Source: Clostridium sp.
GTDB lineage: Bacteria > Bacillota > Clostridia > Lachnospirales > Lachnospiraceae
Assembly: GCA_023664605.1 (NCBI GenBank)
Contig: JAMPFF010000001.1
Location: 48,106 to 112,105, forward strand
Length of the DNA stretch: 64,000 nt
Direction of reading: 5' to 3'
The position numbers and the translations under genes were made by a program. The notes below the pieces were generated by a model. The model was not told the DNA's origin and did no database searches. It saw only the letters and a program-made list of their open reading frames with translations. Shown piece by piece: positions 15,448 through 55,290 of the stretch (within the stretch, counting starts at the first letter, position 1; each line of letters begins with the position of its first letter).

Positions 15448-16557
15448 TTACACTATTTCTCTTTCTCTAGGTACAGCATACATAACCAGCTCTGCATTAC
15501 CCAAGCGATTATTATATGATGGTGCATATTTTCTAAACATAATCTTGTATTTATCCACTATCTCATAAACCAACAATGGCAACTCTACGATATCTTCCGG
15601 TTTATGATATGCACATATTGCTAAAACAGGACGATTCTTCTTTATGCATTCTTTTAAGCCTATTATAACTTCCTTTTCCATACCTTCTATATCCATATTT
15701 ATTAAGGTTATTTTTTTATCTATATAATATTCTACACTGCTTTTATCCAGATATATATTTTTAAGTTCAATTTTATGAAGTAAATCATCCGGTAAAATAT
15801 TTATATTCTTTCTCAGCTTTCGGTATGTATCTCCATCTCCTTCTACACCATATATCTTCTCAAATTGTTCTTTTCTATTTTCTATAAAATAGAATATGGA
15901 ATCTCCAACACAACTGCCAACATTTAAAAAGCACTCGTCTTTTAGCGGAATATAGCCTTCAAAATATTTATTACATGATTTTCCATGTTCACCTTTATAT
16001 ACACAATTTGTAATTATCGCCTTAATATATTCAAAGATTGCCTCCCTTGACGGAGTATCCTCTAATTTCTCAAACATTTTCAATAATTCATTCTTATGAC
16101 ATGTATAATAATGAAACCAACTGTACCTATATGGTGCCAGTCCATATTGCTGTGCAAAAGGATATATAAAATTATCCATACCAAGCTTTCTCAATATCTG
16201 TAAAATTTCTGCTGTTTCCGTCTCATAATACTTAGGTGATATTAAAACCAAATATCCCCCCCCTAGCAATTCTAGAGGAATTCTATCCGGATGATATATT
16301 GTACAGGAATCCATTTGCTTATTATGTTTATCAATATCATTATCTATAATAAATTTAACTGATATTCTTTCCTTCTTCAGCCAATGTAATAAATACTCAC
16401 ATCTTAGTCCGGCACCATAAATAACAATTTCATAATTTTTATATTTAATGATGGAGCGTAAAAATCCCATTTCAGATACCAATTCATATTCTCCACCACC
16501 TTGAACCATGTAATTTTCAGGATAGTTTAACATGTCCTCAAAAACAGTTTCTTGCAT
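15448..16557 (-). CDS. FkbM-family methyltransferase with N-terminal Rossmann-like module, phase-variable
   Basis: The protein has 369 residues. Residues about 40-140 are the island's shared Rossmann-like module (IVIYGAGLRCEYLLHWL, then FIIDNDIDKH). The C-terminal two thirds are an FkbM methyltransferase: FLNVGSCVGDSIFYF is the SAM-binding loop, followed by LINMDIEGMEKEVIIGL and the family ending. It would O-methylate a sugar. A G8 tract on the coding strand (16256-16263, codon about 98) encodes GGG in ELLGGGYLVL; the present length keeps the frame. The ATG at 16557 has AAAGGAGA upstream and is preferred to 16587. It is divergent from the giant fusion gene. Confidence 0.85.
   Translation of the reverse strand: MQETVFEDMLNYPENYMVQGGGEYELVSEMGFLRSIIKYKNYEIVIYGAGLRCEYLLHWLKKERISVKFIIDNDIDKHNKQMDSCTIYHPDRIPLELLGGGYLVLISPKYYETETAEILQILRKLGMDNFIYPFAQQYGLAPYRYSWFHYYTCHKNELLKMFEKLEDTPSREAIFEYIKAIITNCVYKGEHGKSCNKYFEGYIPLKDECFLNVGSCVGDSIFYFIENRKEQFEKIYGVEGDGDTYRKLRKNINILPDDLLHKIELKNIYLDKSSVEYYIDKKITLINMDIEGMEKEVIIGLKECIKKNRPVLAICAYHKPEDIVELPLLVYEIVDKYKIMFRKYAPSYNNRLGNAELVMYAVPREREIV
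16256..16263 (-). repeat. Poly-G8 tract (coding strand), gene in frame
   Basis: Eight C on the plus strand, eight G on the coding strand of the FkbM gene, surrounded by very AT-rich sequence. One-base slippage would truncate the protein before its methyltransferase domain. Confidence 0.85.
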
Positions 16558-16591
16558 AAGAATACTCTCCTTTAATAATATATTCACTTAT

Positions 16592-16620
16592 AATATAGCA
16601 TTGATATATCTATTTTTCAA
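16592..16620 (-). promoter_or_regulatory. Promoter for the FkbM gene
   Basis: Minus strand: TTGAAA (16615-16620), 17 bp, TATATT (16592-16597), about 35 bp before the start codon at 16557. It is back to back with the plus-strand promoter at 16627-16656. Confidence 0.5.
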
Positions 16621-16626
16621 TTAATT

Positions 16627-16656
16627 TTGACCTTGAGTTTCATCCTCCTGTATGCT
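16627..16656 (+). promoter_or_regulatory. Promoter for the fusion gene at 16729
   Basis: TTGACC (16627-16632) is followed by 18 bp and TATGCT (16651-16656), about 70 bp before the ATG at 16729. A weak AAAGGA site lies before that ATG. Confidence 0.45.
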
Positions 16657-16728
16657 ATCCTTTTTATAGCAATAACATCAAAATATAGTGAAAATTACTG
16701 CAATAAAATAAAGGATAAATATTAGATT

Positions 16729-19700
16729 ATGGCAAAATTAGGGTTTGGCTTTCTTAGATTTCCCACAATTGAAGATGAACTTGACGAATTTGATTTGGAA
16801 AAAGTTCAAGCTATGGTAGATGAGTATATGAAAGGTGACTTCTGCTATTTTGACCTTCATCCAGGATATTTAAAAGGCAAGGCTGAAGAATTTCTTAGAA
16901 AATTCGTAGTAGAAAAGTATGACAGAAGCTCATTTATGGTCGCTAATAAAGTACCTCATTATGTGCAAAAAGAAGAAGACTATAATATCATTTTTAACAA
17001 TTCTCTAAAAACTTGTAACGTAACATATTTTGACTATTACCTTTTACATGCTCTTACAAAATCGAATGCTTCATTACATGAGAAACTGGGTGGATTTCGT
17101 TTTTTAAACAAATTAAAAGAACAGGGTTTAGTAAAAAAAATAGGATTTTTTTTCCATGATACCGCTGATGTTTTGGATGAAATATTAAGTAATCATCCAG
17201 AGATGGATTTTGTCCAATTACAGATTAACTATTTAGATTGGAATGACCCTGTCATCCAATCCAGAAAATGTTATGAAGTTGCAAGAAAACATAACAAACC
17301 TATATTTGTAATGGAACCAATAAAGGGCGGTTTTTTATCAAATCTAGATTATATAAAAGACCAATCTCTGCCAACGGCAAAACAGCTTGCTAAAATAGCA
17401 TTACAATTTGTATCGTCACTACAAGGAATTGATATTATCTTAAGCGGCATGAGTGAAGTTTGCCATATACAAGAGAATAGAATAACTCTCTCAAAAGATG
17501 AAGCAGATAACTCTTTACAAATAGAAGCATTAAGAGAAGTTATTAAAAAGAATAAACGTATTCAATGCACCGCTTGTAGATACTGTGAAAGGGAATGTCC
17601 TAAAAAAATATCAATTCCAGACATTATATCCTTATTGAACTCTTATGAACATGTGGGAGCGCATGATATCTCTTATATTTCAAGAGCCAAAATACTATAC
17701 AACGGCTTGATAACTGAAGAAAAAGGCAAAGCAAGCGAATGCATCAAATGTGGTAAGTGTGAAATAAACTGTCCGCAAAAACTTAAAATAAGAAAATATA
17801 TGAACGAGGCTAAAACGCTTTTTGAAATGGATTCAAATTCTCCAAGAAATTATTATACCAATGAAAGAAATGTACAAATCCTGATTTATTTATTAAAAGT
17901 CCATGGCATTCATAAACTTGTTATCAGCCCTGGCAGCGCTAATGTTGCCTTTTCATATAGTGTTCAATATGACGGAGATTTTGAAATATATTCTTGTGTA
18001 GATGAAAGATCTGCGGCTTATTTAGCATGTGGGCTTGCCGCAGAAACAGGCGAAGCTGTCGTTTTAAATTGTACAGGTGCAACTGCCTCAAGAAACTATT
18101 TCCCTGCCTTAACAGAAGCGTACTATAGAAAATTACCTATCCTAGCAATCACTGCCACACAATTTACCGGCAATATAGGAAACCTAATTCCACAGGTAAT
18201 TGACCGTTCTGTACAACCTAACGATATTGTAACATTAAGTGTTGACATTCCTATAGTCAAATCAGATGAAGACGAGTGGAATGCAGAAATAAAAATAAAT
18301 CAGGCATTACTTGAACTCAAAAGAGCTGTCGGGGGGGGACCGGTTCATATTAATCTTCAAACATCATGGACCTGTGATTTTTCAGTTAAGAAACTTCCAG
18401 AAGCCAGAATAATAGATAGGATTACAGTGGAAGATAATTTTCCCATACTTAATAGCCAGCATGTGGGAATATTTGTAGGTTCTCATTTAAAATGGGATAA
18501 AAAATTAACAGACAGCGTTGACGCATTCTGTGAAAGCCATAATGCAGTAGTTTTATATGACCATACAAGTAATTACCACGGAAAATATGGCGTTTTAGCA
18601 ACTATTATTTTAAGCAATGATATCCATGATTTAAATGATTTTGAATTACTAATTCACATAGGAAATACTTCAGGAGCATATTATCCTATAAAAACACAGG
18701 AAGTATGGCGAGTGAATCCGGATGGAGAAATCAGGGATACTTTCAAAAAATTAAAATTTGTTTTTGAAATGAAAGAAATAACCTTTTTTGAATCATATTG
18801 CCAAAATACAAGCGATACAAGCACTCATTTTGCAAAACAATGGCAAAATGAATATGAGCGACTAATTCACCAAATACCCGAACTTCCATTTTCAAATATA
18901 TGGGCTGCGCAACAAACTTCTAGTAAAATTCCATGTGAATCCGTCATTCATTTTGGGATTCTAAATTCATTAAGAAGTTGGAATTTTTTTGAGCTTCCCA
19001 AAACAGTTTACGGATATTGCAATACGGGCGGATTTGGTATTGATGGCTGTGTTTCCTCGTTAATAGGTGCATCTTTAGCCGATGCTAACAAGATATATTA
19101 TGGCATAGTGGGAGATTTAGCTTTCTTTTATGACATGAATTCACTTGGAAACAGACATATTTCCTCCAATATACGATTGATGATTATTAACAATGGCACC
19201 GGTGTAGAAATGAAACTTAAAAGAGCGGCAAATTTCCTTGAAAAATTTGGGAATGATGTTGATGATTTCATTGCTGCTAAAGGTCATTATGGGCAAAAGT
19301 CCAGCACTCTTATAAAAGACTATGTAACCAATCTAGGGTTTGAATATATGTGTGCTACAGATAAAGAAACATTTATGCAAGTTCTGGAACGATTTACATT
19401 AACCAGCATTACGGAAAAACCTATGGTGTTAGAACTATTTGTAAATGAGTTAGATGAATCTGCGGCACTCGATATGATAGAAAATATAGAAGCAAACAAA
19501 CAGAAAAAGAATTTTGACAATTTAGTTATTTCAAAAGAAAGAAAAACGGTAATCCATCCTCAATCACTGCATAATTCCGATAGCAAACAAAATGTTGTCG
19601 TATGGGGTCGGGGCGTTGCTTTTAAATCATACATAGACAAAGTTCAGGAAAAATGTCATGTCTCTTATGTATGTGATAATGATAATACCAAATGGGGTAA

Positions 19701-19890
19701 AAAAATATATGGAATTGAATGTATATCACCCCAAAAGCTATTAGAATTGGAAAATGTCTTTGTTGTCATTATGCTTAAAAATATTGACACCGCCTTTCAA
19801 GTAGGAAACCAACTATTAGATATGGGAATATCACATTTTGATAGCGTTTTTAATTTCCTACAGTACGACAGTTGGGAATGGTTCTTATAA
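16729..19890 (+). CDS. Four-part fusion: aldo/keto reductase, two 4Fe-4S motifs, MenD-like TPP enzyme, Rossmann-like module; phase-variable
   Basis: The protein has 1053 residues. Residues 1-270 form an aldo/keto reductase barrel (LGFGFLRFP, FDYYLLHAL, QLQINYLDW, EPIKGG). Two ferredoxin-type cysteine clusters follow near 280 (CTACRYCERECP) and 337 (CIKCGKCEINCP). Residues about 378-925 resemble thiamine-diphosphate enzymes of the MenD type: DERSAAYLACGLA, LNCTGATASRN, and GDLAFFYDMNSL...NNGTG near 794 for cofactor binding. The end (about 954-1053) is the island's shared module (VVVWGRGVAF, VCDNDNTKWG). It may decarboxylate or join a keto acid to an aldehyde to build an unusual sugar; inferred. 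A G8 tract at codon 534 keeps the frame. Confidence 0.85.
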   Translation: MAKLGFGFLRFPTIEDELDEFDLEKVQAMVDEYMKGDFCYFDLHPGYLKGKAEEFLRKFVVEKYDRSSFMVANKVPHYVQKEEDYNIIFNNSLKTCNVTYFDYYLLHALTKSNASLHEKLGGFRFLNKLKEQGLVKKIGFFFHDTADVLDEILSNHPEMDFVQLQINYLDWNDPVIQSRKCYEVARKHNKPIFVMEPIKGGFLSNLDYIKDQSLPTAKQLAKIALQFVSSLQGIDIILSGMSEVCHIQENRITLSKDEADNSLQIEALREVIKKNKRIQCTACRYCERECPKKISIPDIISLLNSYEHVGAHDISYISRAKILYNGLITEEKGKASECIKCGKCEINCPQKLKIRKYMNEAKTLFEMDSNSPRNYYTNERNVQILIYLLKVHGIHKLVISPGSANVAFSYSVQYDGDFEIYSCVDERSAAYLACGLAAETGEAVVLNCTGATASRNYFPALTEAYYRKLPILAITATQFTGNIGNLIPQVIDRSVQPNDIVTLSVDIPIVKSDEDEWNAEIKINQALLELKRAVGGGPVHINLQTSWTCDFSVKKLPEARIIDRITVEDNFPILNSQHVGIFVGSHLKWDKKLTDSVDAFCESHNAVVLYDHTSNYHGKYGVLATIILSNDIHDLNDFELLIHIGNTSGAYYPIKTQEVWRVNPDGEIRDTFKKLKFVFEMKEITFFESYCQNTSDTSTHFAKQWQNEYERLIHQIPELPFSNIWAAQQTSSKIPCESVIHFGILNSLRSWNFFELPKTVYGYCNTGGFGIDGCVSSLIGASLADANKIYYGIVGDLAFFYDMNSLGNRHISSNIRLMIINNGTGVEMKLKRAANFLEKFGNDVDDFIAAKGHYGQKSSTLIKDYVTNLGFEYMCATDKETFMQVLERFTLTSITEKPMVLELFVNELDESAALDMIENIEANKQKKNFDNLVISKERKTVIHPQSLHNSDSKQNVVVWGRGVAFKSYIDKVQEKCHVSYVCDNDNTKWGKKIYGIECISPQKLLELENVFVVIMLKNIDTAFQVGNQLLDMGISHFDSVFNFLQYDSWEWFL
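18331..18338 (+). repeat. Poly-G8 tract, gene in frame
   Basis: Eight G read GTC GGG GGG GGA CCG inside the MenD-like domain. Gain or loss of one base would leave the reductase and iron-sulfur part but destroy the TPP enzyme. Confidence 0.85.
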
Positions 19891-19899
19891 AAATACGCC

Positions 19900-19935
19900 A
19901 AACTATATGCTCCTTATGCTTGGAGCATATAGTTT
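19900..19935. terminator. Convergent hairpin between fusion gene and 19946 gene
   Basis: A perfect 14-bp stem (AAACTATATGCTCC and its complement) with an 8-nt loop. T-tracts on both sides are short, so termination strength is uncertain. Confidence 0.6.
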
Positions 19936-19945
19936 AAAAAATAGT

Positions 19946-20422
19946 TTACACTTCATATAAAACATCTTCCAATGAAATAATTTCACAATCCAGTTTTTTA
20001 GAAAGTTTCTGTTCAATTTCATCAAAAAAAGTAATAGCAGTAACTACTACCGCATCTACTTTCTCCAGTTCATCTTCCAAAGAAAAGACTTCAACATCAG
20101 CATAAATTGATTCACCCTTTTTATCAATGCCATATGCTACATGAATACTCGTATTTTTTAGTTCATCAAGCAAAGTTTCCCCTGCATAATGCATACCATA
20201 AATAGCAATATTCCTATAACCTTTTCTTTCAAAATAATCTGCAAGACATTTACCCTCCTGCTTTACCTTGACCCATTGATTCATCATAAGAAACAATGCT
20301 AAATGTTTATCTGACAAAGACTGGAGTTTATTTATTTTATCTGATGCCGCCTTTCCCGTTATCCCAACCCCAATTATCGTTCCTGCTAATGCTGACAATG
20401 TTGAAATTATTCCCTTTTTCAT
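19946..20422 (-). CDS. Small protein made mainly of the shared Rossmann-like module
   Basis: The protein has 158 residues. A hydrophobic N-terminal helix (about 5-24, glycine-rich) may be a membrane anchor. A short helical linker follows, and then from about residue 70 the module seen on many enzymes here: IAIYGMHYAGETLLDEL, VAYGIDKKGES, VDAVVVTAI. It is closest to the C-terminus of the GT2 at 35876-37114. No enzyme domain is attached. A binding or scaffold role is speculation. Confidence 0.65.
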   Translation of the reverse strand: MKKGIISTLSALAGTIIGVGITGKAASDKINKLQSLSDKHLALFLMMNQWVKVKQEGKCLADYFERKGYRNIAIYGMHYAGETLLDELKNTSIHVAYGIDKKGESIYADVEVFSLEDELEKVDAVVVTAITFFDEIEQKLSKKLDCEIISLEDVLYEV

Positions 20423-20439
20423 TATCCATTTTCCTCCTG

Positions 20440-21639: not shown

Positions 21640-21672
21640 TTACTCACCAAAACTTTCCCTTCTAATCTAAAA

Positions 21673-22803
21673 TTATCCCCTGTAATCCCTACATTTTTTC
21701 ATTTCTGTACTTAATATATCTATTGCATGCTTTCCCTTATGTAAATACTTATTATAAAACACTTCTCTATTTCTTATATCAAAACTAGACTTCCCATAAG
21801 CATTATTCAATTCCCACAATTTCTCTTGTAACACTTTTTTTATATAGAAATCATCTTTAACTGCTTCCATTAACTTCCGCCCCTTATTAGTATTAACATA
21901 AACTAAAGATGTTCCTTTATTATCATTAAATTTCTCTATATAGTCATCTACTGTCCAAAAATCCCCTATTGTCAAATCACTGTATCGGTTCATTCCTTTA
22001 AATTGACAATTATAGCAGCATTTTCTATCAATATATCCTTTCAAGAAGCCAAACATATATGGATTTTGTTTTTGCGTATCAACATATTGCGATCCATCCG
22101 AAAATTCTATTTTCATTCCGAAATTGCTCCAGCCCTCAAGGGATTTATCTCTGAAAGAAATATTTTTACACTTAGCATTTCTTTTTTCTTCCATCATTCT
22201 TACGAATTCACGCCAAATTTGGGGCGAAGGAACACCATGGCATATTAAATCTACTAAAAACAAATTTTCATAATCTTTTTCTAAAAATGTGTGCAGCCCA
22301 TATACTTGGCAAGGCGTTCCTACAAACAAAACCTGCTTTCCACTTTCAAGGATTCTTTGAATTTGCAAATAACATTTTCCCAAATCACTCTGCACATATT
22401 TTGACTTTGTCAGCTCACCAATTCTACTTGCATCATCAATGATAATATGTTTAACATACATCTCATTATCCAGGACAGCACCACATACTACTCCTCCCGA
22501 TTGCAATACGGAAAGAGCAAAACTGTAAAATACCCCCCCCGATGAACTTATTCTCCTGATTTTCTTAGAACGATGAATCATCCCTAAGACTTGAGGATAA
22601 AATTTCTGTCTTTTTACCTGCCGGGTCGGACATACCTTATAACATAGACCACATTGAACACATCTTTCCATATTGATGTTCGGATGTAAAAACCCCTCCG
22701 AATCCATTTTCATCTCTATGCACTTTTTAGGACAAATATTAACACAGGCTGTACATCCGACACATTTATTATAAGAAATTTCTCTGATGTTTCTACATTT
22801 CAT
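21673..22803 (-). CDS. Coenzyme F420 hydrogenase/dehydrogenase beta-subunit-like (FrhB) iron-sulfur protein, phase-variable
   Basis: The protein has about 376 residues. Two 4Fe-4S clusters start it (CVGCTACVNICPKKC and CVQCGLCYKVCP). The FrhB N- and C-terminal domains follow, with SSSGGVFYSFA, GTPCQVYGL and CHGVPSP. Such proteins are flavin/iron-sulfur electron carriers and often sit beside polysaccharide pyruvyl transferases in glycan loci, as here. The G8 tract 22533-22540 (codon about 88) encodes the SGG turn and is in frame. The ATG at 22803 has GAAAGGA at good spacing; an upstream ATG at 22824 overlaps the previous stop. Confidence 0.85.
   Translation of the reverse strand: MKCRNIREISYNKCVGCTACVNICPKKCIEMKMDSEGFLHPNINMERCVQCGLCYKVCPTRQVKRQKFYPQVLGMIHRSKKIRRISSSGGVFYSFALSVLQSGGVVCGAVLDNEMYVKHIIIDDASRIGELTKSKYVQSDLGKCYLQIQRILESGKQVLFVGTPCQVYGLHTFLEKDYENLFLVDLICHGVPSPQIWREFVRMMEEKRNAKCKNISFRDKSLEGWSNFGMKIEFSDGSQYVDTQKQNPYMFGFLKGYIDRKCCYNCQFKGMNRYSDLTIGDFWTVDDYIEKFNDNKGTSLVYVNTNKGRKLMEAVKDDFYIKKVLQEKLWELNNAYGKSSFDIRNREVFYNKYLHKGKHAIDILSTEMKKCRDYRG
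22533..22540 (-). repeat. Poly-G8 tract (coding strand), gene in frame
   Basis: Eight C on the plus strand. On the coding strand it reads TCG GGG GGG GTA within the conserved SSGG turn of the FrhB-like protein. Confidence 0.85.
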
Positions 22804-22823
22804 ATAGGATGATCCTTTCTTCA

Positions 22824-23844
22824 TTAACTATTTTCTTTCTTATAAATATACCAAGATTCAATAACATCACCATCTATCTGCTTATTTTCTGCCCCTATTC
22901 CCGGCACCATCGTATTCTTAAATTTGCAAATTAATTTCATCTTCCTTTTCCCAAAAATATCTTCAATCACTTTTTGCGGAAATATCCGCCATGTATTTGC
23001 CGGATTCTGTTCATTACTTAAAACACTTTCCGTCATAGTATCTTCCGTATGCATATCAAACACTACATATCCATCCTTTTTACATATCCGAATCATTTCC
23101 AGCAAATATCGATAAGCATTATCATAGGTAATTAAAGAAAATATATTGCTCGCAAATACTAAGTCCACAGACTCATCTGCCGTTGCTTTTAGACTTCTCC
23201 CGTCTGCTTCCTGACTCAACATCTGACAATATGGATATTGATAATTTTCGATAATATACTCTGCCAATTTCTTCTCTATTTCGTAGAATTCATACCTTGT
23301 CGGTTCAAATTTTTCAATCAGCTTAACCAAAATTCTTCCTGAACCAGGGCCAATCTCGCAAATACCCCCCCCCAGATAAATTTACTACTTCCGCAATTTT
23401 ATCAATAAGAACATCTGTTTTTACTCCTACGGCATTATAATGATTTTCATAATATTGAGCCAGCGTAATACCTTGTCTATGTGCATCATAAATCATAAAA
23501 GCAGGTGCATATAAATGATAGTAATGCTCCTCCCAGAACACATCCTCTATATTCTTATTATCCACATGCTTCTCATCTAATGATTTTATTATCTCTGTAA
23601 ATATAACATCATTTATACACGCTACCAGATAACAATAATCGTTCATCTTATCCGCATCCAGGTCTGTTATCTGCTGTATTCCTTCACCGGTGCGGTTATT
23701 ATCTACAATACAATATTCCTGCAGATGAAATTCCTGATTCAAAATTTCTTTTACTTTTTTTCCATAAACGCCAAATGGATAAATAATAATTTCTTTCTTC
23801 TTATCTAATGCTTTTTTCACTGCTTCTCTGATTCTTTCTTCCAT
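22824..23844 (-). CDS. SAM-dependent methyltransferase with N-terminal Rossmann-like module, frameshifted at a G9 tract (phase OFF)
   Basis: As sequenced the gene is split. The first frame (23844 to 23323) holds the shared module (IIIYPFGVYGKKVKEIL, CIVDNNRTG) and a linker, then reads through the tract into a short nonsense tail. The second frame (to 22824) holds the rest of a class I methyltransferase. With G8 in place of G9 the frames join and the methyltransferase motif I, ICEIGPGSGRILVKL, follows the tract immediately. The joined protein would have 339 residues. The start at 23844 has GAGGTGA upstream. The current allele should make no methyltransferase unless slippage occurs during transcription or translation. 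Confidence 0.85.
23365..23373 (-). repeat. Poly-G9 tract (coding strand), gene out of frame
   Basis: Nine C on the plus strand at codon about 157 of the methyltransferase. Loss of one base restores the reading frame through SAM motif I. Confidence 0.9.
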
Positions 23845-23855
23845 ACTCGGTCACC

Positions 23856-34714: not shown

Positions 34715-35904
34715 TTACTCAAATAGCAAATACTGATAAAACTTTCTCTTTTCCAATTCCTGTATAATCTCCGCCTGCCATTGACTTCCTACAGAAATAA
34801 TAATTCCGGTAGTTTTTTTCAACTCAATATCATCTATTGACATAACGGAAACTCCCTCTATTTCTTTATCGTCCATATTACCTATTGAGGTAACAATAAA
34901 CCCTTTCGGTTGTATCCTTAAAGACCGGCAAATTTGTAGGCACTCTTTTCCCATTATCCCTGCGCCATATAAATAGAGAGCAGAATATTTCTGACTAAAC
35001 TTTTCAATTTCTTCCATTCTGGAATTATAATTACTTAATCCACGATAAGTCCTAATTCCGAAATTATCTTTCATTATATTCCACAATTCACTCATCTCAT
35101 CATGCAATAGATTAATAAAATATTCCGCAAAAGAAGAGGATATTGCAATTTTTACCTGATATCCCGCATCTTCCACCACATATTGTAAAACCCGCTCTAT
35201 TGCATGATTTATCTCCCCATCATCCCGTATCGGTTCATCCGGAAAATCCGTATACTGCCAATTTTTAATATATAATTTTTCTAATGTCTTAGTTCTTGCC
35301 CAAAAAACTGTTCCATATGTAACGGGGGGGCAGAAGAGATATCTGCCATCACTCCTAATGTTTCTGCTAATTTTCGTGTATTCTGGTAATTTGACCCCCA
35401 TGAGGCATGCAGCCAAGTTCCTATATCTCTTTTATGCGGCGGCAACGGCACAAACATTCCTATATTTTTCTCACTTTCAAACAATTCCAAAATATTATAT
35501 ATATAAATATCCGACCGCAGCATATTATCCCACAAATTTTTTCTCCATACATCCACAAACGCCTTAGTACCTAATGACTTTTCCTTTTTATCATGAATAA
35601 AACAAATATACTCATATTGGGAAAGCACATCCTTGGCTGCTACCAGTAATGCACTGATATCCCTTCCTCTATTTTCTTTTTTTATTTTCTGAAATCTATC
35701 CGATGCAAACAATTCTAAAATTGTGTCTTTTGAAGAAATAAGAATAATATCTATAAAATGTGGGATTCTCTCTAAATATTCCCGATAAAATTCCACTTGT
35801 TCATCATAGTATAAGTGAACTAAAACTGCTGCTTTCAGCTTTTCTATATCTAATTCTGTCGTTGTTTTTTTATTATCAGAAATTATGTGATACATTTCCT
35901 TCAT
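34715..35904 (-). CDS. RgpF-type glycosyltransferase with C-terminal Rossmann-like module, frameshifted at a C7 tract (phase OFF)
   Basis: The gene is split in two frames. The first (35904 to 35281) is the N-terminal part of a rhamnan synthesis protein F-like protein (VLVHLYYDEQVEFY, RGRDISALLVA, FVPLPPHKRD). The second (to 34715) continues it with VTYGTVFWARTKTLEKLY and the shared module at the end (LYLYGAGIMGKECLQI). The frames cross at seven C on the coding strand (35324-35330). With eight C the two join as GCC CCC CCC GTT into one protein of 396 residues. The true start may be the ATG at 35895, with GGGAG 9 nt upstream. As sequenced the gene is OFF. Confidence 0.85.
35324..35330 (-). repeat. 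Poly-C7 tract (coding strand), gene out of frame
   Basis: Seven G on the plus strand near codon 191 of the RgpF-like gene. Gain of one base restores the frame. It is the only tract of the set with C on the coding strand. Confidence 0.9.
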
Positions 35905-37114
35905 CTCCCATATCTAATTCCAACAGCAGCCGTTGTATTGTAACCACCGGACAGCCCGCCTTTTGCGCTAAATAATCGCAAAGCTCTTCGCACTTTTCCA
36001 CCAGTGTAACAATCATTACATCTACTGGCGGCAGCTCATTATCCGGATGGAATATTTGTAATTCCTCCCTAAAATCTATTGCTGACTTATCTATGGCATA
36101 TGCTACAGAAATATTACTGTTTTTCAACTCATAATATAAGCTTTCCCCAATATATCCCATACCGTATATAGCAACACTATGATACTGATGATTTATAAAA
36201 AATAATGAAAAACTTTTTCCATGGTTCTTTGAGTCAATCCAATTACGCATAACATGAAAAATTTTAGAATTCTTTCGCATCTGCCTTATCGTCTGCATAA
36301 CATTTGTATCTTTCCAAAAACAATATGTATCTGCTGCTTCCATCAAAGCTATCCATTGGCTTAACATGACACGTTCATCTTTATTCAGTATTTTCGTATC
36401 AACAAGTATTTGTAACGTTTCTTTAAGGGATTGTATCATATGGAACTCATCTACCGAATCTTCTGTTCTGGCTGATGTATGATAATACAGACACTCTTCA
36501 TTGATTCCTAACTGATATCCCTTTTTTAACATCATAATCCACAGTAAAAAATCATCTGCCCCATTTATTTGCTGTATATGACTTAACCATTCCTGTGGAA
36601 TACAGTCTTTTCTCATAATTACCTGCCCCGGTGACATGATGGGATTGCCGGAACGTATCAAAGCTTCTAAACTGCGCGTATTATTCTCTAATGTTCGGGA
36701 ATCGCTCAGTTTACGGAACCTCTCCAACCATCCATTACATACACAAACAGGTACCTTTGTTTCTTCAATTTTATGCCACTGACTATATATCCAATTATCC
36801 TTTGCCAAATCGTCCTGGTCAAAAAGAATAATATATTTTCCTTTTGCATTCTCAATCCCTGTAACACGGGCTGCATGTATCCCTTTATTTCTCTCATGCG
36901 TAATCAGACGTGTCACAAACAAGGTGTCCTTTCCCTCCAGCACAATGTGTTCTTGAGGAAAATCATTTACAAAAATAACTTCTAATGAACACTCTTGATA
37001 CAAATTTTGAAAGACATAATTACGCTCTATAAGGTTCAATAACTGACAGCAATACTGCCCCCCCCGATATAATGGAATCACTATCGAAATATCCATATTA
37101 TCACTGTTTTTCAT
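35876..37114 (-). CDS. GT2 glycosyltransferase with C-terminal Rossmann-like module, phase-variable
   Basis: The protein has about 412 residues. GT-A motifs: ISIVIPLYRGGQYCCQLL at the start, VIFVNDFP, and FDQDDLAKDNWIY. The C-terminal 110 residues are the shared module (VAIYGMGYIGESLYYEL, VAYAIDKSAID), closest to the small gene at 19946. The G8 tract at 37060-37067 encodes the RGG at about codon 16, so slippage would abolish almost the whole protein; it is now in frame. Starts at 37126 and 37114 are both open; spacing to AAAGG favours 37114 over the adjacent 37126. Confidence 0.85.
   Translation of the reverse strand: MKNSDNMDISIVIPLYRGGQYCCQLLNLIERNYVFQNLYQECSLEVIFVNDFPQEHIVLEGKDTLFVTRLITHERNKGIHAARVTGIENAKGKYIILFDQDDLAKDNWIYSQWHKIEETKVPVCVCNGWLERFRKLSDSRTLENNTRSLEALIRSGNPIMSPGQVIMRKDCIPQEWLSHIQQINGADDFLLWIMMLKKGYQLGINEECLYYHTSARTEDSVDEFHMIQSLKETLQILVDTKILNKDERVMLSQWIALMEAADTYCFWKDTNVMQTIRQMRKNSKIFHVMRNWIDSKNHGKSFSLFFINHQYHSVAIYGMGYIGESLYYELKNSNISVAYAIDKSAIDFREELQIFHPDNELPPVDVMIVTLVEKCEELCDYLAQKAGCPVVTIQRLLLELDMGDEGNVSHNF
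37060..37067 (-). repeat. Poly-G8 tract (coding strand), gene in frame
   Basis: Eight C on the plus strand; coding strand reads CGG GGG GGG CAG at about codon 16 of the GT2 gene. Confidence 0.85.
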
Positions 37115-37220
37115 TTTAATAACCATGCCTTTCTCTCAACCTGCGATGTTTGCTGCCGTAAGGCACAAACTCGCGTGTGCAAAATTTATTTTTCACACTA
37201 CTCTCCATCATCATTCAAAT

Positions 37221-38165
37221 TTATAACTCTTTAAAACACCTATCAAAATATTGCACTGTCCTTGTAACTCCCGCCTCTAACGTCAGCCTGTCCGGCTGTC
37301 CAAAACAACTCTCATATCTGGAAATATCCAGAATATTGACCGGAACATCTGCTTTTCTATTTTCCTGATATTCTACAGCTACTCTTTTTCCTAAGACTTT
37401 TTCTATGATGCCGATTACTTCATTTACACTATATCCTTTGCCCGAACCGACATTGAAAACTTTAAAATTTCCTTCATAATCCACAATATTAAGAATTGCT
37501 GTAACCGCATCTTCTATATATATGTAATCTCTTATTACAGAACCGTCTCCATATACTGATAGGGTCTCATTTCGCATAGCTCTATATATGAAAGTGGTAA
37601 CCACTCCCTGTACCCCGTTTGGTCTCTGATGCTTTCCGTAAGGATTAGACAATCTGATTATCCTATAATCCAAACCATACAAATACCAATATAAATATAA
37701 TAATTTTTCAATTGTAATTTTTTGCAAACCATATCCTGAAATCGGATTATTAACAGCATCTTCCGACAATGGTACATTATCAGACATACCATATATTGTG
37801 CCTCCGGAAGATAAAAAAATCACTTTTTTCACGCCGTTTTTCACACAAGCCTCCAATAATAACGAAGTGACCACAACATTATCTATTAAGCCCTGTGCAA
37901 TATGCTGATTGGAATTATTCGGAAGCGTTGTACTGATTAAATGATATACAATATCAATATTCTGTGTCAACTGCATAAAATCTGTTTCCGTATTAAAATC
38001 TCCCTGTATAACACGACATTTTGTCTGTTGTTTTGCCGGCATCTCTTGACAAAAACTTATTTTATCCTTATCGAACAATATGAATTCATCATAACTTCTA
38101 TCAAAAGCCATTTCTACTAAATTTCTGCCAATAAATCCACCGGCCCCTAAAATCAAACACCTCAC
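37221..38165 (-). CDS. NAD-dependent sugar-nucleotide epimerase/dehydratase
   Basis: The protein of 314 residues is an extended short-chain dehydrogenase. It shows LILGAGGFIGRNLVE, FLSSGGTIYG, the catalytic YGLQK, and RLSNPYGKHQRP. It resembles UDP-glucose 4-epimerase type enzymes. It follows the ParE/RelE-type toxin gene by 15 bp. Confidence 0.85.
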   Translation of the reverse strand: MRCLILGAGGFIGRNLVEMAFDRSYDEFILFDKDKISFCQEMPAKQQTKCRVIQGDFNTETDFMQLTQNIDIVYHLISTTLPNNSNQHIAQGLIDNVVVTSLLLEACVKNGVKKVIFLSSGGTIYGMSDNVPLSEDAVNNPISGYGLQKITIEKLLYLYWYLYGLDYRIIRLSNPYGKHQRPNGVQGVVTTFIYRAMRNETLSVYGDGSVIRDYIYIEDAVTAILNIVDYEGNFKVFNVGSGKGYSVNEVIGIIEKVLGKRVAVEYQENRKADVPVNILDISRYESCFGQPDRLTLEAGVTRTVQYFDRCFKEL

Positions 38166-38180: not shown

Positions 38181-38513
38181 TCACACCAAGATATTTTCAT
38201 AATCTTGCAAATCATGGTAAACACCGATAACATATACGCGTGTATCGATAATTTTGTATAACATAAAATACTTATGCTGCTTTAAATGTATAGTTCGATA
38301 TCCCAAAGTTCTAAATTTCGGAGCATCACACAATTTCAGACTGTCAGCTATATAAGAAAGTCTTTTAACGGTTTCTTTCATATCCTGCTCAACACTATAA
38401 GCCGCCTGCGCATTTCCCAATTCATCAAAAATATAATCTATAATCTTCTGTATTTGTTCTTCTGCCTTTTGAGTCAATACAACTTCAAAATTTATATCTT
38501 TTTTCCAACCCAT
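38181..38513 (-). CDS. RelE/ParE-family toxin
   Basis: The protein has about 110 residues from the ATG at 38513 (GAGG upstream). It shows the superfamily layout: VVLTQKAEEQIQKIIDYI, a central LGYRTIHLKQHKYFMLYKI and VYVIGVYHDLQDYENIL at the C-terminus. It overlaps the antitoxin gene by 29 bp. Probably a ribosome-dependent RNase or a gyrase inhibitor; I cannot decide which. Confidence 0.85.
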   Translation of the reverse strand: MGWKKDINFEVVLTQKAEEQIQKIIDYIFDELGNAQAAYSVEQDMKETVKRLSYIADSLKLCDAPKFRTLGYRTIHLKQHKYFMLYKIIDTRVYVIGVYHDLQDYENILV

Positions 38514-38745
38514 TAAATACCTCTTCTTCTCTTTTGTACTTTCCATTGGCAATCTCTTTTTCTGCTATCTCTACATCATGCAAAAAATCTTCTTCGGACA
38601 TGGGTTTAAGTATTCTGCCAATTTTTTCATCAGCTAATTCGCACTCTCGTTGCTGAAATAGTTCTCGAATTAAATCTTGTATCTTCACTAAATCAGCTTC
38701 CGGTAATGTTTCCATCATAGAAATTGTCTTCTCTAATGTACTCAT
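38485..38745 (-). CDS. Antitoxin of the RelE/ParE-type pair
   Basis: The protein has about 86 residues from the ATG at 38745, with GAGGAGG upstream. It is helical and acidic (METLPEADLVKIQDLIREL, EEDFLHDVEIAEKEIANG). It is of the kind commonly paired with ParE-type toxins in Clostridia. The pairing is clear from overlap; the family name is not. Confidence 0.75.
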   Translation of the reverse strand: MSTLEKTISMMETLPEADLVKIQDLIRELFQQRECELADEKIGRILKPMSEEDFLHDVEIAEKEIANGKYKREEEVFNGLEKRYKF

Positions 38746-47684: not shown

Positions 47685-48533
47685 TTACATTTTTTTCTTT
47701 TTCATCTGTGAATCTGAAACAAAGCATCGCAGCTCCGTCACCGGATGCACCTTCCGCATTTCCATCGGCGGCAGTTCCCTATAGTTTCCAAACTTAAATG
47801 TCAAATAGGCATCATAATTTTTAATGCCCCAGAACATTTCGTTCTCAAATAGTATTTTCTCACTGTTTTCATACCATTCCCGCAGATAGCCGTATTCCCT
47901 ATTCGGCGTTGGAAATGTCAGGATGCGCACCCATTTCGTCTTCTTCTTACTTTGCTTTAACACATATTTATTATAATGCCGGTATAAAACATCCGCCGGA
48001 ATGGCGTTAAGCAGCCTGTACCAGCCCTTTAAAAACAGGCTTTTGGAAACGATTTTCCCAACCGGCGCCCACATCATCTTTCGGATGCAGTAACAATGAA
48101 GATTCTGCCATGTCCTTATCATCCTGTTATCGGAAACCGCATCCAGTGGAAAAATATCAATGAAAATTCCCTGCTCATACGGCATATGCTCCTGATTCTC
48201 ACGCAAAAACACGGTTCCTTTTCTGCGCAGTTTTCCGTATCCCCAGCGGTAACCCGTTGTATTTCTATGGTCCTGAAAATAAAATCTGCTATGGTCTAAC
48301 TCTTTCTCGCAGGCCGCCCGGAATTTCTCGTAATCTTTTCTAAGAAACGCCACGTCCGCGTCATCATCCCATGGAATATAGCCCTTATGCCTTACCGCTC
48401 CCAAAAGCGTACCCGCTATAATATTGTAATGGATATTACAAAGTTTACAGATTCTATCCACTTCTTTTAACATTTCCAACTGGATGAGCTGAACCTGCCT
48501 GAGTTCAGTGTCCGTCAAATGATGCACTTTCAT
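47685..48533 (-). CDS. LicD-family phosphotransferase
   Basis: The protein has 282 residues. LicD motifs: NIIAGTLLGAVRHKGYIPWD with the DDDADV metal site, and GIFIDIFPLD. LicD proteins transfer phosphocholine or related phospho-alcohols from CDP donors to glycans. No licA, licB or licC genes are present, so choline is less likely than a polyol phosphate. A paralogue lies at 62930-63820. Confidence 0.85.
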   Translation of the reverse strand: MKVHHLTDTELRQVQLIQLEMLKEVDRICKLCNIHYNIIAGTLLGAVRHKGYIPWDDDADVAFLRKDYEKFRAACEKELDHSRFYFQDHRNTTGYRWGYGKLRRKGTVFLRENQEHMPYEQGIFIDIFPLDAVSDNRMIRTWQNLHCYCIRKMMWAPVGKIVSKSLFLKGWYRLLNAIPADVLYRHYNKYVLKQSKKKTKWVRILTFPTPNREYGYLREWYENSEKILFENEMFWGIKNYDAYLTFKFGNYRELPPMEMRKVHPVTELRCFVSDSQMKKKKM

Positions 48534-49923: not shown

Positions 49924-49977
49924 GTAACTAAATCCTCTCACATCTAAACTCGCAAGCCCGCGCTTTCAGCGCTTTAT

Positions 49978-50010
49978 GTCCGATTACATCGGACGCTTGC
50001 TCTCATTATA
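49978..50010 (-). promoter_or_regulatory. Promoter and palindrome upstream of the CDP-glycerol-transferase-like gene
   Basis: On the minus strand TGATATAAT (an extended -10; core 50005-50010) lies upstream of a 7-bp palindrome GTCCGAT-TAC/GTA-ATCGGAC (49978-49994). The palindrome would sit in the first transcribed bases, fitting an operator or a leader hairpin. Confidence 0.4.
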
Positions 50011-50119
50011 TCACATGCTTTAAAAGTCCACCACTCTATAAATTGTGTATCTGTATCATGTATGTGACGTCTTATACATTATATCGAATAAAATATACTA
50101 AACCTTTAGCCGCATTCTA

Positions 50120-50128
50120 TGGTATAAT
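50120..50128 (+). promoter_or_regulatory. Extended -10 promoter for the gene at 50178
   Basis: TGGTATAAT (TATAAT at 50123-50128) matches an extended -10 element about 50 bp before the ATG at 50178. No clear -35 is seen. Confidence 0.45.
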
Positions 50129-50177
50129 AACCTCAGACTTAGCAGTCTGCGCTATAATCGTAAAGGGAGCAGCATCT

Positions 50178-51338: not shown

Positions 51339-51344
51339 GGGGAA

Positions 51345-51539
51345 TTATGCTCTCCTCGCACTATTTCCCCTTGGAGGATTTACTCTTCTAAACTTCAATG
51401 CCCTTTCCGGGGTAGTTTCCGGACAATCCTCATCAAAAACAACCGGTTTTTCTCTGGCAATTTTCAATTCTTGTATCTCCTCTTCCGAAAAAGCCAGTTC
51501 TCTTACTAAACCTGCCGACAAATTACTGACATTTACCAT
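51345..51539 (-). CDS. BrnA-like antitoxin partner
   Basis: The protein has about 64 residues from the ATG at 51539. It contains KPVVFDEDCPETTPERALKF, the linker found in antitoxins paired with BrnT, but lacks the usual C-terminal ribbon-helix-helix and is short. It overlaps the BrnT gene by 17 bp. AAAGGGG precedes the start. Confidence 0.7.
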   Translation of the reverse strand: MVNVSNLSAGLVRELAFSEEEIQELKIAREKPVVFDEDCPETTPERALKFRRVNPPRGNSARRA

Positions 51540-51921
51540 AATAAAGACCCCTTTCAAAACTGGTGGCATATCTTGCCGAAATCAATCTTATCACATCGAT
51601 ATCCATACCGTTTTCATTTCGTCTAACACGTTCCGTATATACTACAAATAACACATCATCTATTCCAACATTACCAATGGTGGTATCTGTGTTTTCTGCA
51701 GGGCTAATGCCTCCTGCCGATACATCTCCAATCGTATCATATCTGTCTTCAAAAACGCTATTCTCTTCATCATAAAATTCAATTCTATCATAATCGAAGA
51801 ACACACGAGCAGCGCTCCTAAAAGAAATACCATGTTTTTCAATATTTGCTTTATTCTTATCTTCATCATATTCAAAGGTCATTCCACCAAGAATAAATGT
51901 AATATATTTGTTACTATCCAT
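51523..51921 (-). CDS. brnT: BrnT-family toxin
   Basis: The protein has 132 residues. BrnT features: FEYDEDKNKANIEKHGISF, EDRYDTIGDV, VLFVVYTERV and IRLISARYATSFERGLYY. Normal BrnT is about 90-100 residues; here about 20 extra residues lie between TIGDV and DDVLFV and contain a second TIGNV, like an internal duplication of the strand. Whether it is active is unclear. Confidence 0.8.
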   Translation of the reverse strand: MDSNKYITFILGGMTFEYDEDKNKANIEKHGISFRSAARVFFDYDRIEFYDEENSVFEDRYDTIGDVSAGGISPAENTDTTIGNVGIDDVLFVVYTERVRRNENGMDIDVIRLISARYATSFERGLYYGKCQ

Positions 51922-52050
51922 ATTGCAACTTTCAAAATCCTTATTTTACTTTCTATTGATACTTATTAGTATACGTTGACCGCACGAAAAATACAATATA
52001 TTGCACGGAAAATGTATGTTCCATTCCTCGTCCTTTTACGCTCTATATCC

Positions 52051-52863
52051 CTATCTTAGATAATACAGCAGCATTTTGTTGACCTGCTCTAAAATACCTC
52101 TTTTCTGCGCTCTTAATAAGACCTCTTCCACCACACTGCTAAATTTACCATATTTTACCAATTCTGCTTTATGCTGCGCTATCATGTAACATCTTGCTTC
52201 ATAATAGCCTGCCGTATTGGATGAAACGCCCTCTGTATTCAAATGCACTATCACCAGCGGCTCTTCTATAAAAAGAATCGAATATTCCTTGGCGATTCGC
52301 ATAAACAGCTCCCAATCTTCCAGACAGGACAGATTCTCACAAAACAACCCGACTTTTGAAAAACATTCCCTGCGTGCCAGCACCGTCGGCGCTCCTATCG
52401 TATTCCGACAAAGCAGTTTTTCATAAATATCTCCCTGTTTGTCATGCAGCGGTATCTGCTCATCCGGCACAATAGTAATATCTCCGTCAAATCTATTGCA
52501 TTCATAGGCACAATACACCATTCCCGCCTGCGGGTTATCCATAAGCGCCTGCATCTGCTTTTCCAGCTTATCCGGCTTCCACCAGTCATCACTGTCCTGA
52601 AAGGCAATATATTCATATGCCGCTTGCCTGATTCCCTCGTTTCTGGCGGCTGATGCACCGTGATTCTCCGGCATTTTGATATAACGCATCCGCTCATCTT
52701 CTATGCTATTTATCACATCCTGCGTATTATCGGTAGAACCGTCATCGACAATGATAAGTTCAAACTCCCGGTAAGTCTGTTCTAATACGCTTCTAACCGA
52801 TTTTTCTATGCAGTCCGCTCTGTTATAAGTCGGTATGATAATACTCACTTTTTCTCTTTCCAT
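52051..52863 (-). CDS. GT2 glycosyltransferase
   Basis: The protein has about 270 residues. Motifs: VSIIIPTYNRADCIEKSV, IIVDDGSTDNT, FQDSDDWWKPDKL, and the ED acid stretch LSCLEDWELFMRIA. Close in sequence to the GT2 at 32086 but without the Rossmann-like module. The start at 52863 follows an AGGA-rich leader. Confidence 0.85.
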   Translation of the reverse strand: MEREKVSIIIPTYNRADCIEKSVRSVLEQTYREFELIIVDDGSTDNTQDVINSIEDERMRYIKMPENHGASAARNEGIRQAAYEYIAFQDSDDWWKPDKLEKQMQALMDNPQAGMVYCAYECNRFDGDITIVPDEQIPLHDKQGDIYEKLLCRNTIGAPTVLARRECFSKVGLFCENLSCLEDWELFMRIAKEYSILFIEEPLVIVHLNTEGVSSNTAGYYEARCYMIAQHKAELVKYGKFSSVVEEVLLRAQKRGILEQVNKMLLYYLR

Positions 52864-52902
52864 ATTTCTTCTTTTCCTCATAAATTTTTTACAAAAGTAA
52901 CT

Positions 52903-54090
52903 TTATACTTCAAATAGTCTTTCAAATCCCCTTTGATAAGAAAAGCTTTCCTGCACTTTCTTTTGTCCCGCCGCCGCTATCCGCTGTCTTTCCTCCTCAT
53001 GCTGCAAATAATAGCTTATTTTATCCAGACATTCCTGCAGACTCCGAAATGTCGCAATTTCTTCCCCTTCACGGAAAGCTTCCGCAATTTCCGGCTGCCA
53101 GTTCGTCAGCATAAATCCGCCGCACGCCATGCAATCCAGCACTCTGAGCGGGATTCCTGAATGTATGGAACGCAGCGTCAGATTCAAGTTAATCCTGCTT
53201 TCTGCAAACACAAGCGGCATCTGTGTATGATAATCGACAGTGCCTTTATGATGGCGGGATAATAGTGGTATCCCCTGCAAATCAGAAGCCGTATACAGAC
53301 TGAAACGATATTGTTCTCCAAATGCTGACGCTGTCTGCACTAAAAGCTCTCGTCTTTCTTCTACCGTGACTTTCTTTTCCAGTATCTTTGCCAAAACCAC
53401 GTCCTCCGGTTTGGCAAAATAATCTTCTCCCAATCCAAACCCCTGTTCTTCCAGCATCTCCGAAAGAACGTTAAATTCCGTCCTGTTTTGTTCCACCGCT
53501 TCTCGCAGATAATCCCCTTGATAGGAAAAGCACTGTTTTTGCAGCGCCTGGCTCCATACGTTTTCCTCCCCTTGCGGGAATAATTTATCATAGTAATTAT
53601 GCTCATCCGTATACAGAGAACCTATAAAAGAAATATCGCACTGATACTTTGTCCGCTCTGTATTGGAAGCCTGACGAATCGCATCCGCAAAAACATCCGC
53701 GTCCACCGCAAGAGGCACATGGTACACAGTCTGTACGCCGTACTGCTGTAGATTTTCCACCAATTTTCTATCAAAAATGCCGATATGGTTACAGGGCAGC
53801 ATAACCAGCTTGGCATACAGCGTAAAATGCGGACAGTCATATACCCACGCATAATAGGGAATCTCCACCGTATCGCAAATCATGGAAATAATGGGAAAAT
53901 AATCAAAAGAAATGACAGCCTCTATACCCTGCTCATAAATATAGGGTATCATCTGCGCGGCAAGCTCCATATCCCTCGTATAATGACTGCATTTCTTACT
54001 AAACGGAATAATTTCAAATCCAAGCTTTCTTAAATTATCACTTAAAATCTGTTCACTATTGGATTTCCATGAATATAATAGTAGTTTCAA
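52903..54090 (-). CDS. CgeB/DUF3880-type glycosyltransferase
   Basis: The protein has 395 residues with the same layout as 50178-51338: MKLLLYSWKSNSEQIL, VISFDYFPIIS, WVYDCPHFTLY and NLTLRSIHSGIPLRVLDC, then GGFMLTNWQ. The two genes lie on opposite strands about 1.6 kb apart and are obvious paralogues. Confidence 0.85.
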   Translation of the reverse strand: MKLLLYSWKSNSEQILSDNLRKLGFEIIPFSKKCSHYTRDMELAAQMIPYIYEQGIEAVISFDYFPIISMICDTVEIPYYAWVYDCPHFTLYAKLVMLPCNHIGIFDRKLVENLQQYGVQTVYHVPLAVDADVFADAIRQASNTERTKYQCDISFIGSLYTDEHNYYDKLFPQGEENVWSQALQKQCFSYQGDYLREAVEQNRTEFNVLSEMLEEQGFGLGEDYFAKPEDVVLAKILEKKVTVEERRELLVQTASAFGEQYRFSLYTASDLQGIPLLSRHHKGTVDYHTQMPLVFAESRINLNLTLRSIHSGIPLRVLDCMACGGFMLTNWQPEIAEAFREGEEIATFRSLQECLDKISYYLQHEEERQRIAAAGQKKVQESFSYQRGFERLFEV

Positions 54091-54114
54091 CGACCGCTCC
54101 TTCTATGCTTTGCA

Positions 54115-55290
54115 CTAACTATTCCATAAATAGTCATTCAACATCTTTGAAAACTTCACCGCGCCATAATAATTCAAATGTGTCGCATCATAATAGCAGG
54201 CTCTTTCCTTTGCAATTTCGTGGTCTTTCCAATCCAAAAATACAAAGGGATACTGTTTTTGATACTCCTGCATAACATCATAAAATATTGTCTGCCATTC
54301 GGCATACGCCTCTTTCTGCATCTCTTCCGTCTCTATGTACTTGGGTATTAAAATTGCAAAAATTTTCATTTTCGGATTAATTCTATATGCCAACTCTAAC
54401 AGCCTATAAAAATATACGGTATTTTCCTGTATGGTTTCCTGATATACATTTTTTACAATACTTGTATATACCTGATGTTCTTTTATATCCTTTTCTTTAA
54501 CGATTCTTGCCCTTTCATATAGTTTTAGGGGATTCCTAAATTCCTGATACTTTGTTTTTTCATGCACATTATCAAAAATCTGCTCCCAAGCAGCCATCTT
54601 TTCCCGTGTAATTCCTTTCAAACTCTGTTCCTGCAATACCATCTGCAGTTCTTCAAACCGGTATGGAATATTTTTGTTTTTGGAAAAATTATGGGCATCC
54701 CGCATAAAACCGCCGTCATTATAATACTGTGTAATCGCTTTACTCATAGAAACATCAAAATTAAAATATGTATAATCATACATATCAATAATCAGGTATT
54801 TCATATCTGCAATTTTTTCCGGATAATGTAAAAAGCAATGCTCCAGAGTTTTAAAGTTATAATAAATATCCTGAGAAGAAACCGCTAAATTGCAGAATGC
54901 GCCATCGAAACACCGCGGCATGATTCCGCAATAAGCATGTGAAATACCCAATATCATACCATCATATCTGGATATCAAAGGATTTTTCATCACTCTATCT
55001 ACTACCATAGGCGGTACAATGGCATGGTACACCGCATAAAAATTAATGATTTTACTATCATCCCCCCCTATCAGGCAAACCAGCAATTCATACAAATATT
55101 CTGCATGTTTTTCCTCCTGCATGGCTATGATAATCCAGTCGCAGTCTGACAGCATATCCGCCCTCAATTCCTCCGGTCCATTATCATCATCCCAATAAAC
55201 GGTCTTTGCAACTGCGCTTTCGTCTCTAAGAGCGCACCGCACCAGACCCATATCTTCTTTTTTACCAATCAGTAAAACTTTCATCTTCAT
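54115..55290 (-). CDS. SGNH/GDSL-like protein with N-terminal Rossmann-like region, phase-variable
   Basis: The protein has about 391 residues. The first 100 residues look like a diverged form of the shared module (VLLIGKKEDMGLVRCAL, DWIIIAMQE). The remainder ends with DATHLNYYGAVKFSKML, the Asp-His block of SGNH-type acyl esterases and transferases, and has LGISHAYCG as a possible nucleophile region. It may add or remove acyl groups from the glycan; moderate confidence. A G7 tract (55062-55068, codon about 74) encodes IGGDDS and is in frame. The ATG at 55290 best fits the AAAGG spacing. Confidence 0.65.
   Translation of the reverse strand: MKMKVLLIGKKEDMGLVRCALRDESAVAKTVYWDDDNGPEELRADMLSDCDWIIIAMQEEKHAEYLYELLVCLIGGDDSKIINFYAVYHAIVPPMVVDRVMKNPLISRYDGMILGISHAYCGIMPRCFDGAFCNLAVSSQDIYYNFKTLEHCFLHYPEKIADMKYLIIDMYDYTYFNFDVSMSKAITQYYNDGGFMRDAHNFSKNKNIPYRFEELQMVLQEQSLKGITREKMAAWEQIFDNVHEKTKYQEFRNPLKLYERARIVKEKDIKEHQVYTSIVKNVYQETIQENTVYFYRLLELAYRINPKMKIFAILIPKYIETEEMQKEAYAEWQTIFYDVMQEYQKQYPFVFLDWKDHEIAKERACYYDATHLNYYGAVKFSKMLNDYLWNS
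55062..55068 (-). repeat. Poly-G7 tract (coding strand), gene in frame
   Basis: Seven C on the plus strand; coding strand reads ATA GGG GGG GAT. A shift of one base would remove the SGNH-like part. Confidence 0.75.

Follow-up and report, generated by a model that had tools for sequence, protein, structure and literature searches.

The 64,000-nucleotide stretch of the Clostridium sp. (Lachnospiraceae) genome analysed here (assembly GCA_023664605.1, contig JAMPFF010000001.1, forward-strand positions 48,106 to 112,105; hereafter the window, whose own numbering is used for its features) carries an AT-rich gene cluster in which homopolymeric runs of G or C, referred to as tracts, lie within open reading frames (ORFs). 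The gene content of this island (methyltransferases, a pyruvyl transferase, DegT, cytidylyltransferase-PfkB, SIS, HAD, epimerases, glycosyltransferases, radical SAM and LicD) points to a surface glycan, and its GC fraction of 0.369 (15.4-55.3 kb) versus 0.434 over the first 15 kb agrees with the AT-rich island of an earlier note on this DNA. A search with both letters finds exactly seven runs of at least seven G or C in the window, with G on the coding strand in six and C in one (35324). These are the seven tracts of the earlier note, six at identical positions and the sixth at 37058-37065, two bases from the 37060-37067 given there; all are coding, five in frame and two exactly at a frame break, and the ORF reading agrees with what had been described. 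The cluster and its tracts are as follows.

15448-55296, no strand assigned: AT-rich surface-glycan cluster.
16256-16263, minus strand: G8 on the coding strand (C8 on the plus strand), in frame in an FkbM-type methyltransferase ORF (15448-16587).
18331-18338, plus strand: G8, in frame in an ORF (16729-19890) with aldo/keto reductase, 4Fe-4S and TPP_enzyme_N domains.
22533-22540, minus strand: G8 on the coding strand (C8 on the plus strand), in frame in an FrhB/FdhB-type Fe-S ORF (21673-22824).
23365-23373, minus strand: G9 on the coding strand (C9 on the plus strand), at the frame break that separates ORF 23323-23844 from a methyltransferase ORF (22824-23330).
35324-35330, minus strand: C7 on the coding strand (G7 on the plus strand), at a frame break within an RgpF gene (35281-35904 and 34715-35416).
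37058-37065, minus strand: G8 on the coding strand (C8 on the plus strand), in frame close to the start of a GT2 ORF (35876-37126).
55062-55068, minus strand: G7 on the coding strand (C7 on the plus strand), in frame in an ORF (54115-55296) without Pfam match.

When the window was simulated with Markov models of order 1 to 4, 40 times each, runs of at least seven averaged 0.3-2.9 and runs of at least eight 0.03-0.9, where 7 and 5 are observed, and the largest single simulation reached 6 and 3 respectively; exact runs of six occur once in the window, at 13833. The earlier note had confined the tracts to the island and had proposed a genome-wide count. Pattern searches of the whole genome (3,585,022 bases in 78 contigs) gave 118, 61 and 16 matches on both strands for G7, G8 and G9, as well as 30 exact G8, and in total 57 runs of at least seven G or C, 50 of which lie outside the window, so that the confinement does not hold. 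The window is nevertheless enriched, with 7 of the 57 tracts versus 1.02 expected from the genome-wide density (Poisson 9e-5, for a region picked post hoc), and the island is therefore a hotspot and not the entire system. Nine more runs lie on contig 22 between 97 and 168 kb, and most of these are within or just ahead of genes for sugars or polysaccharides.

The lengths of these runs are bimodal, with 133, 12, 30, 14 and 1 runs of 6, 7, 8, 9 and 10 bases, so that the numbers fall at length 7 and rise again to a second maximum at 8. If the decay from 6 to 7 simply continued, 1.1 runs would be expected at length 8 and 0.1 at length 9; the actual numbers are 30 and 14, and a class of tracts of 8-9 bases thus exists in addition to what chance produces. 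Counts, simulations and length histogram together place repeat tracts in or near genes above chance, as in phase-variable systems. One alternative is neutral slippage, by which the tracts would merely reflect stretches of Gly-Gly (GGG) or Pro-Pro that arose by accident, and genes with a shifted frame would be in the course of being lost. Gly-Gly is indeed encoded by many tracts, some of which fall in the linkers of lipoproteins or at Gly-rich positions that look conserved, but neutral decay does not yield runs of 8-9 in excess of runs of 7, and this explanation is considered unlikely.

The length of a tract is coupled to the reading frame of its gene. Among the 56 of the 57 runs that were read (the unread one has a length of 7), with about 3 kb on each side for the 49 further runs and less at contig ends, 36 judged coding runs of 8-10 bases were tallied: all 24 runs of 8 are in frame, and the 12 runs of 9-10 divide into 4 in frame and 8 out of frame (Fisher 1.6e-5). 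Left out of this count were the ambiguous runs of 8 (L001, L005) and of 9 (L007, L015), the non-coding runs L010, L012, L022, L023 and L025:3073, and all runs of 7, of which 11 were read (7 in frame, 2 out of frame, 2 non-coding). With the two ambiguous runs of 8 scored as out of frame, p becomes 3.5e-4, and with two further runs near gene ends (L018:3049, L033) also scored as such, 3e-3.

Whether such lengths differ between related genomes was addressed with the sister genome G034, which is 93.2% identical in DNA over 36 aligned pieces totalling 143,187 bases (96% over the flagellin tract region); the comparison set consists of the surroundings of its runs of at least seven. An orthologous site is found there for 31 of the 56 tracts, the remaining 25 being absent or shortened in this set. 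The 31 alignments comprise 15 of the same length, 11 of different length, three of which (L023, L031, L035) also carry a neighbouring substitution, 3 interrupted by substitution and 2 unreliable ones; L036 and L256 are paralogues and L034 carries several changes, and neither is a clean pair. By a stricter gap count, pure length differences occur in 9 of 30 G/C runs of at least seven (6 more are interrupted or impure) versus 1 of 74 A/T runs (23 interrupted), that is 9/24 versus 1/51 once interrupted runs are left out; short runs of 4-6 bases differ in 2 of 341 (G/C) and 13 of 2523 (A/T) cases. The tracts are thus length-variable at orthologous sites above control runs, between two species, as the earlier note had anticipated.

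This contrast also bears on the possibility that errors of assembly or sequencing in homopolymer length cause the apparent breaks and differences. The assemblies consist of multiple contigs, and poly-G of artefactual appearance ends contigs elsewhere (over more than 40 bases in genome G012, and at L287), but both species carry the tracts in orthologous genes, A/T runs of the same length class are stable between the two, and errors leave the peak at 8 unexplained; individual breaks may still be errors, although as a general explanation this is very improbable.

The frame follows the length between the two species. Six genes broken at the tract in this genome have an open counterpart in the sister:

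RgpF gene, window 35324: run of 8 in the sister, where the frame stays open for 32 more codons until the contig ends; identity 99.2% over 372 bases.
Glyphos_transf gene: open in the sister, 432 amino acids.
ORF of 239 amino acids: open in the sister.
SBP_bac_5 protein gene: open in the sister, 779 amino acids.
L027 gene: open in the sister, 544 amino acids.
Methyltransferase gene L031: open in the sister, 299 amino acids.

The reverse, open here and broken in the sister, holds for L035 and perhaps for L034. Judged in silico by these six pairs and one or two reversed ones, a change of length switches the reading frame, and the frame-switching proposed in the earlier note is borne out in that tract length decides between an open and a broken gene. 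That the genes broken here are open and otherwise similar in the sister also argues against their neutral loss. Polymerases and ribosomes generally tend to slip on long homopolymers, and transcriptional slippage or ribosomal frameshifting at a fixed DNA length could in principle deliver both products, with the broken genes still expressed; the DNA length itself, however, differs between the sisters at 9 of 30 tracts, and the in-frame position of all 24 judged runs of 8 is unneeded under a programmed shift, which makes this mechanism distinctly unlikely.

Of the window tracts, only those at 35324 and 37058 are comparable, because the DNA at 15.4-24.0 kb gave short matches only and no long match among the 76 other genomes of the genus; the GT2 tract at 37058-37065 is a run of 8 in the sister as well, for the methyltransferase tract at 23365 the sister set offers no counterpart, and no relative of the FrhB-type ORF was found in a scan of genome contigs. 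The segment with the RgpF and GT2 genes (approximately 35000-37400) is 98.5-99.2% identical to sister locus L245, compared with 93.2% overall, and it is possible that this glycan cassette has recently been exchanged with the sister species.

A set of hypervariable G/C tracts is thus real and genome-wide. By Pfam, its genes encompass glycan-type functions (GT2, GT61, GtrII, pyruvyl transferases, Glyphos_transf, acyltransferase, hexapeptide transferases, DegT, epimerase) and others such as radical SAM, CotH, AraC and two-component regulators, a GGDEF-EAL protein, methyltransferases and an antiporter subunit, besides an LRR wall protein, RHS-repeat proteins, one flagellin (L022) and several proteins without Pfam match. 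Six solute-binding proteins carry tracts, several of them after the lipobox as judged by eye and one (L040) just before the start. In 16 of 25 in-frame genes (24 runs of 8, one of 7) the tract lies in the first third of the gene. Among 108 neighbouring ORFs, left from 112 after removal of four that are tract genes themselves, Glycos_transf_2 occurs in 2 and BPD_transp_1 permeases in 10, and the SBP_bac family is not among the 25 families shown of 140; as neighbours share operons with tract genes, this control is weak.

The earlier note had also placed the tracts in a flagellin island. A Flagellin_N search gives nine matches in the genome and none in the window, the nearest on the same contig at C11:149496 (the window ends at contig position 112105), so that this label has been dropped and the island is described as a surface-glycan cluster; the linkage of glycan genes to flagellin genes that characterizes a Campylobacter-type flagellin glycosylation island was not found in the window. 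Flagellin genes are nevertheless associated with tracts, namely with poly-G 4-7 nucleotides upstream of the start codon in ten genes of eight species: G8 in this genome (GTG start), G9 in the sister ortholog and in a second sister flagellin, and elsewhere runs of 10 (G099, G048, G105 and two genes of G032), 9 (G001) and 7 (G002). At the same place of the leader, G110 has GGGGCGGGG, and related genes of G109, G040 and G037 have CGGAGGGCAGG. Recurrence before flagellin starts in eight species is a further argument against neutral slippage. A run of at least seven G is found at 10 of the 24 different flagellin starts that were identified, 23 of them through the start pattern and one (L274) on inspection, and at 7 of the 21 starts that had not been picked for a tract; of the 39 regions retrieved for their flagellin starts, 4 contain a run of G7 or longer, most of the others having been missed by the start pattern, and one more fetched region (L287) has the poly-G resembling a contig-end artefact. 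A GCCGATA-like sequence, which is taken to be the sigma-28 -10 element, lies 76-148 nucleotides upstream in 10 of 13 flagellin leaders scanned and was not seen in L022, L236 and the short L216 leader. As G-runs can pair with the anti-Shine-Dalgarno sequence via G-U wobble, graded rather than on/off control would be expected of this class. A conserved upstream ORF before flagellin was considered and rejected, as the frames disagree across species.

Promoters are another conceivable target. In the Neisseria porA type, a tract between the -35 and -10 elements changes their spacing with its length. On the G-strand, promoter scores of at least 10 are reached by 4 of 114 runs (L155, L023, L011:3033, L152), versus 0.1 expected from 1489 control runs; L011:3033 lies inside a gene. 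The combination of a G-run with TARAAT was rejected as a promoter mark, as several instances fall within genes or lie four bases ahead of a potential start codon, and only two sites were kept: L023, with the tract in the promoter-like spacer TTGACA-18-TAAAAT before a permease gene, and L039, whose tract-bearing spacer TTGACT-17-TATATA lies where a GtrII ORF begins and possibly within its first codons. At L023, the sole comparable site, the length of the tract does not alter the spacing, which is 18 in both species despite G-runs of 8 here and 7 in the sister. Because this spacing is kept and three promoter-like sites of genome G059 overlap a possible ATG start, promoter switching is not claimed.

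The tracts are probably contingency loci in which G/C runs act as frame switches, and phase variation is well supported by the comparison of assemblies, though not proven. Together with the constant spacing at L023, several observations weigh against this interpretation. Of the 31 orthologous tracts, 15 are equal in length in both species and three (L003, L004, L013:2991) are interrupted by substitutions in the sister, so that not all tracts are fast-changing; the interrupted sites would suit neutral slippage. The length evidence derives from assemblies of different species rather than from reads within a strain, and the in-frame tally was made by hand as the automatic caller is unreliable near gene ends and signal peptides. 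For some tract genes no function at the surface is apparent (IspD-type, response regulator, antiporter), several tracts lie at Gly-Gly positions that the protein possibly requires anyway, and the start-site class is overall not enriched (8/159 versus 65/1894 control runs). MutS, finally, is present in the tract-bearing genome, as in 74 of 77 genomes of the genus (the three misses are 66-68% complete); this differs from Campylobacter and Helicobacter, which are not known to carry MutS, and loss of mismatch repair as the cause was rejected.

In the proposed mechanism, a G/C homopolymer would gain or lose one base through slipped-strand mispairing at replication, and a change of length within a gene would shift its downstream half into or out of frame and thereby turn it on or off. 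The window tracts would in this way switch genes of a surface-glycan cluster, and the fifty others would act on glycosyltransferases, pyruvyl transferases, solute-binding lipoproteins, regulators and wall proteins, among others. In a small class at gene starts, chiefly before flagellin genes, where poly-G takes the Shine-Dalgarno position, length probably tunes translation. Switching would be reversible within a population, with escape from immunity or phages as a presumable benefit, and we infer that independent switching could create many glycan forms.

Exact G8 runs are present in 65 of 77 genomes of the genus, and G9 or longer in 56 of 60 members covered by the G9 search, in which matches are positions and not runs. 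In G012 most G9 matches come from one contig end (contig 29, bases 1-54), which is almost pure poly-G and probably a sequencing artefact, and position counts are to be taken with caution. The preferred length appears to differ among species: the tract loci fetched from G005 have 37, 0, 0, 2, 27 and 3 runs of 5 to 10 bases (mode 9) and those from G059 44, 0, 0, 0, 4, 16 and 2 runs of 5 to 11 (mode 10), where shorter tracts are undercounted because the loci were picked for G9 or longer; genome-wide, exact G8 runs number only 8 in G005 and 6 in G059. G006 and G020, with 54 and 34 exact G8 runs, have only 6 and 2 G9 matches. In G059 and G005, in-frame and shifted cases both occur, and many are not frame-assignable by the automatic caller. 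The tract set thus probably extends genus-wide. Somewhat less than even credence is given to the wider proposal of a genus-wide poly-G phasome, with dozens of unrelated tracts per species near a set length of its own (8, 9 or 10) and poly-G Shine-Dalgarno sequences tuning flagellin, so that flagellin and surface glycans would vary stochastically within the host. One G005 locus (L171, contig 1) holds three tandem copies at 2020, 2546 and 3072, spaced by 526 bases, each with G9 in the same place. Outside the genus, 142, 407, 71 and 197 G9 positions were counted in G063, G076, G085 and G097 of the same order, and poly-G richness may recur in other families of the order.

Some further features were seen in the window. 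An 82-nucleotide direct repeat (91% identical; 13143-13224 and 15208-15289) at the left edge of the island flanks an ORF of the PDDEXK-transposase type (14226-15116), and a ParE-type toxin domain is located within the glycan cluster (38181-38552). A glycosyltransferase stretch at 57603-59616 is tandemly duplicated (direct repeats of 82% and 71%, spacing 1055), and an ORF of 158 amino acids without Pfam match (19946-20422) has DNA relatives (66-75%) in many genomes of the genus, sometimes several per genome.

Comparable systems are found in the literature. The Campylobacter jejuni gene cgtB is a poly-G contingency gene with 8 or 9 G, and shares with the tracts described here the G-runs of 8-9 in surface-glycan genes and the frame shift by one G more or less (PMC6437147). 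In contrast to C. jejuni, the lineage here is of Gram-positive type and MutS-bearing, tracts are also found in solute-binding lipoproteins, in regulators and before flagellin starts, and the variation is known from comparison between species, not from switching within a population. The simple sequence repeat phasome of Neisseria (115 genes) likewise has dozens of length-variable repeats per genome, rich in surface genes and in coding as well as upstream positions (PMC5084427), whereas here only G/C homopolymers of single assemblies were examined, and the promoter-spacer type is not established. In the 5' untranslated region of espR, poly-G variants at the 5' end of the leader affect translation and are modelled to act via folding (PMC11898584), whereas the flagellin tract, also poly-G in a leader, is at the Shine-Dalgarno position with a putative translational effect. 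Poly-A/T tracts of prokaryotic genes similarly inactivate genes by frameshift (Orsi 2010; PMC2831843), whereas here G/C runs vary between sisters and A/T runs are stable. A work on Clostridium flagellar glycosylation mentions phase variation for C. jejuni (PMC13317340). Among the full-text literature matches listed, none describes poly-G contingency loci for Lachnospiraceae, an absence that is weak given their incomplete coverage of the literature; as far as these searches show, poly-G frame-switch tracts are known in kind and new in this lineage, and a flagellin start-site version was not seen described.

Lachnospiraceae are numerous in the gut, where their flagellins and surface glycans are exposed to the host. 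If these molecules are phase-variable, a single genome sequence would give a wrong picture of what is presented by a population, and tract lengths counted in existing reads would allow tests of how these commensals vary within a host, are recognised by the immune system and resist phages. The different modal lengths raise the question of what sets the equilibrium length of homopolymers in a MutS-bearing bacterium.

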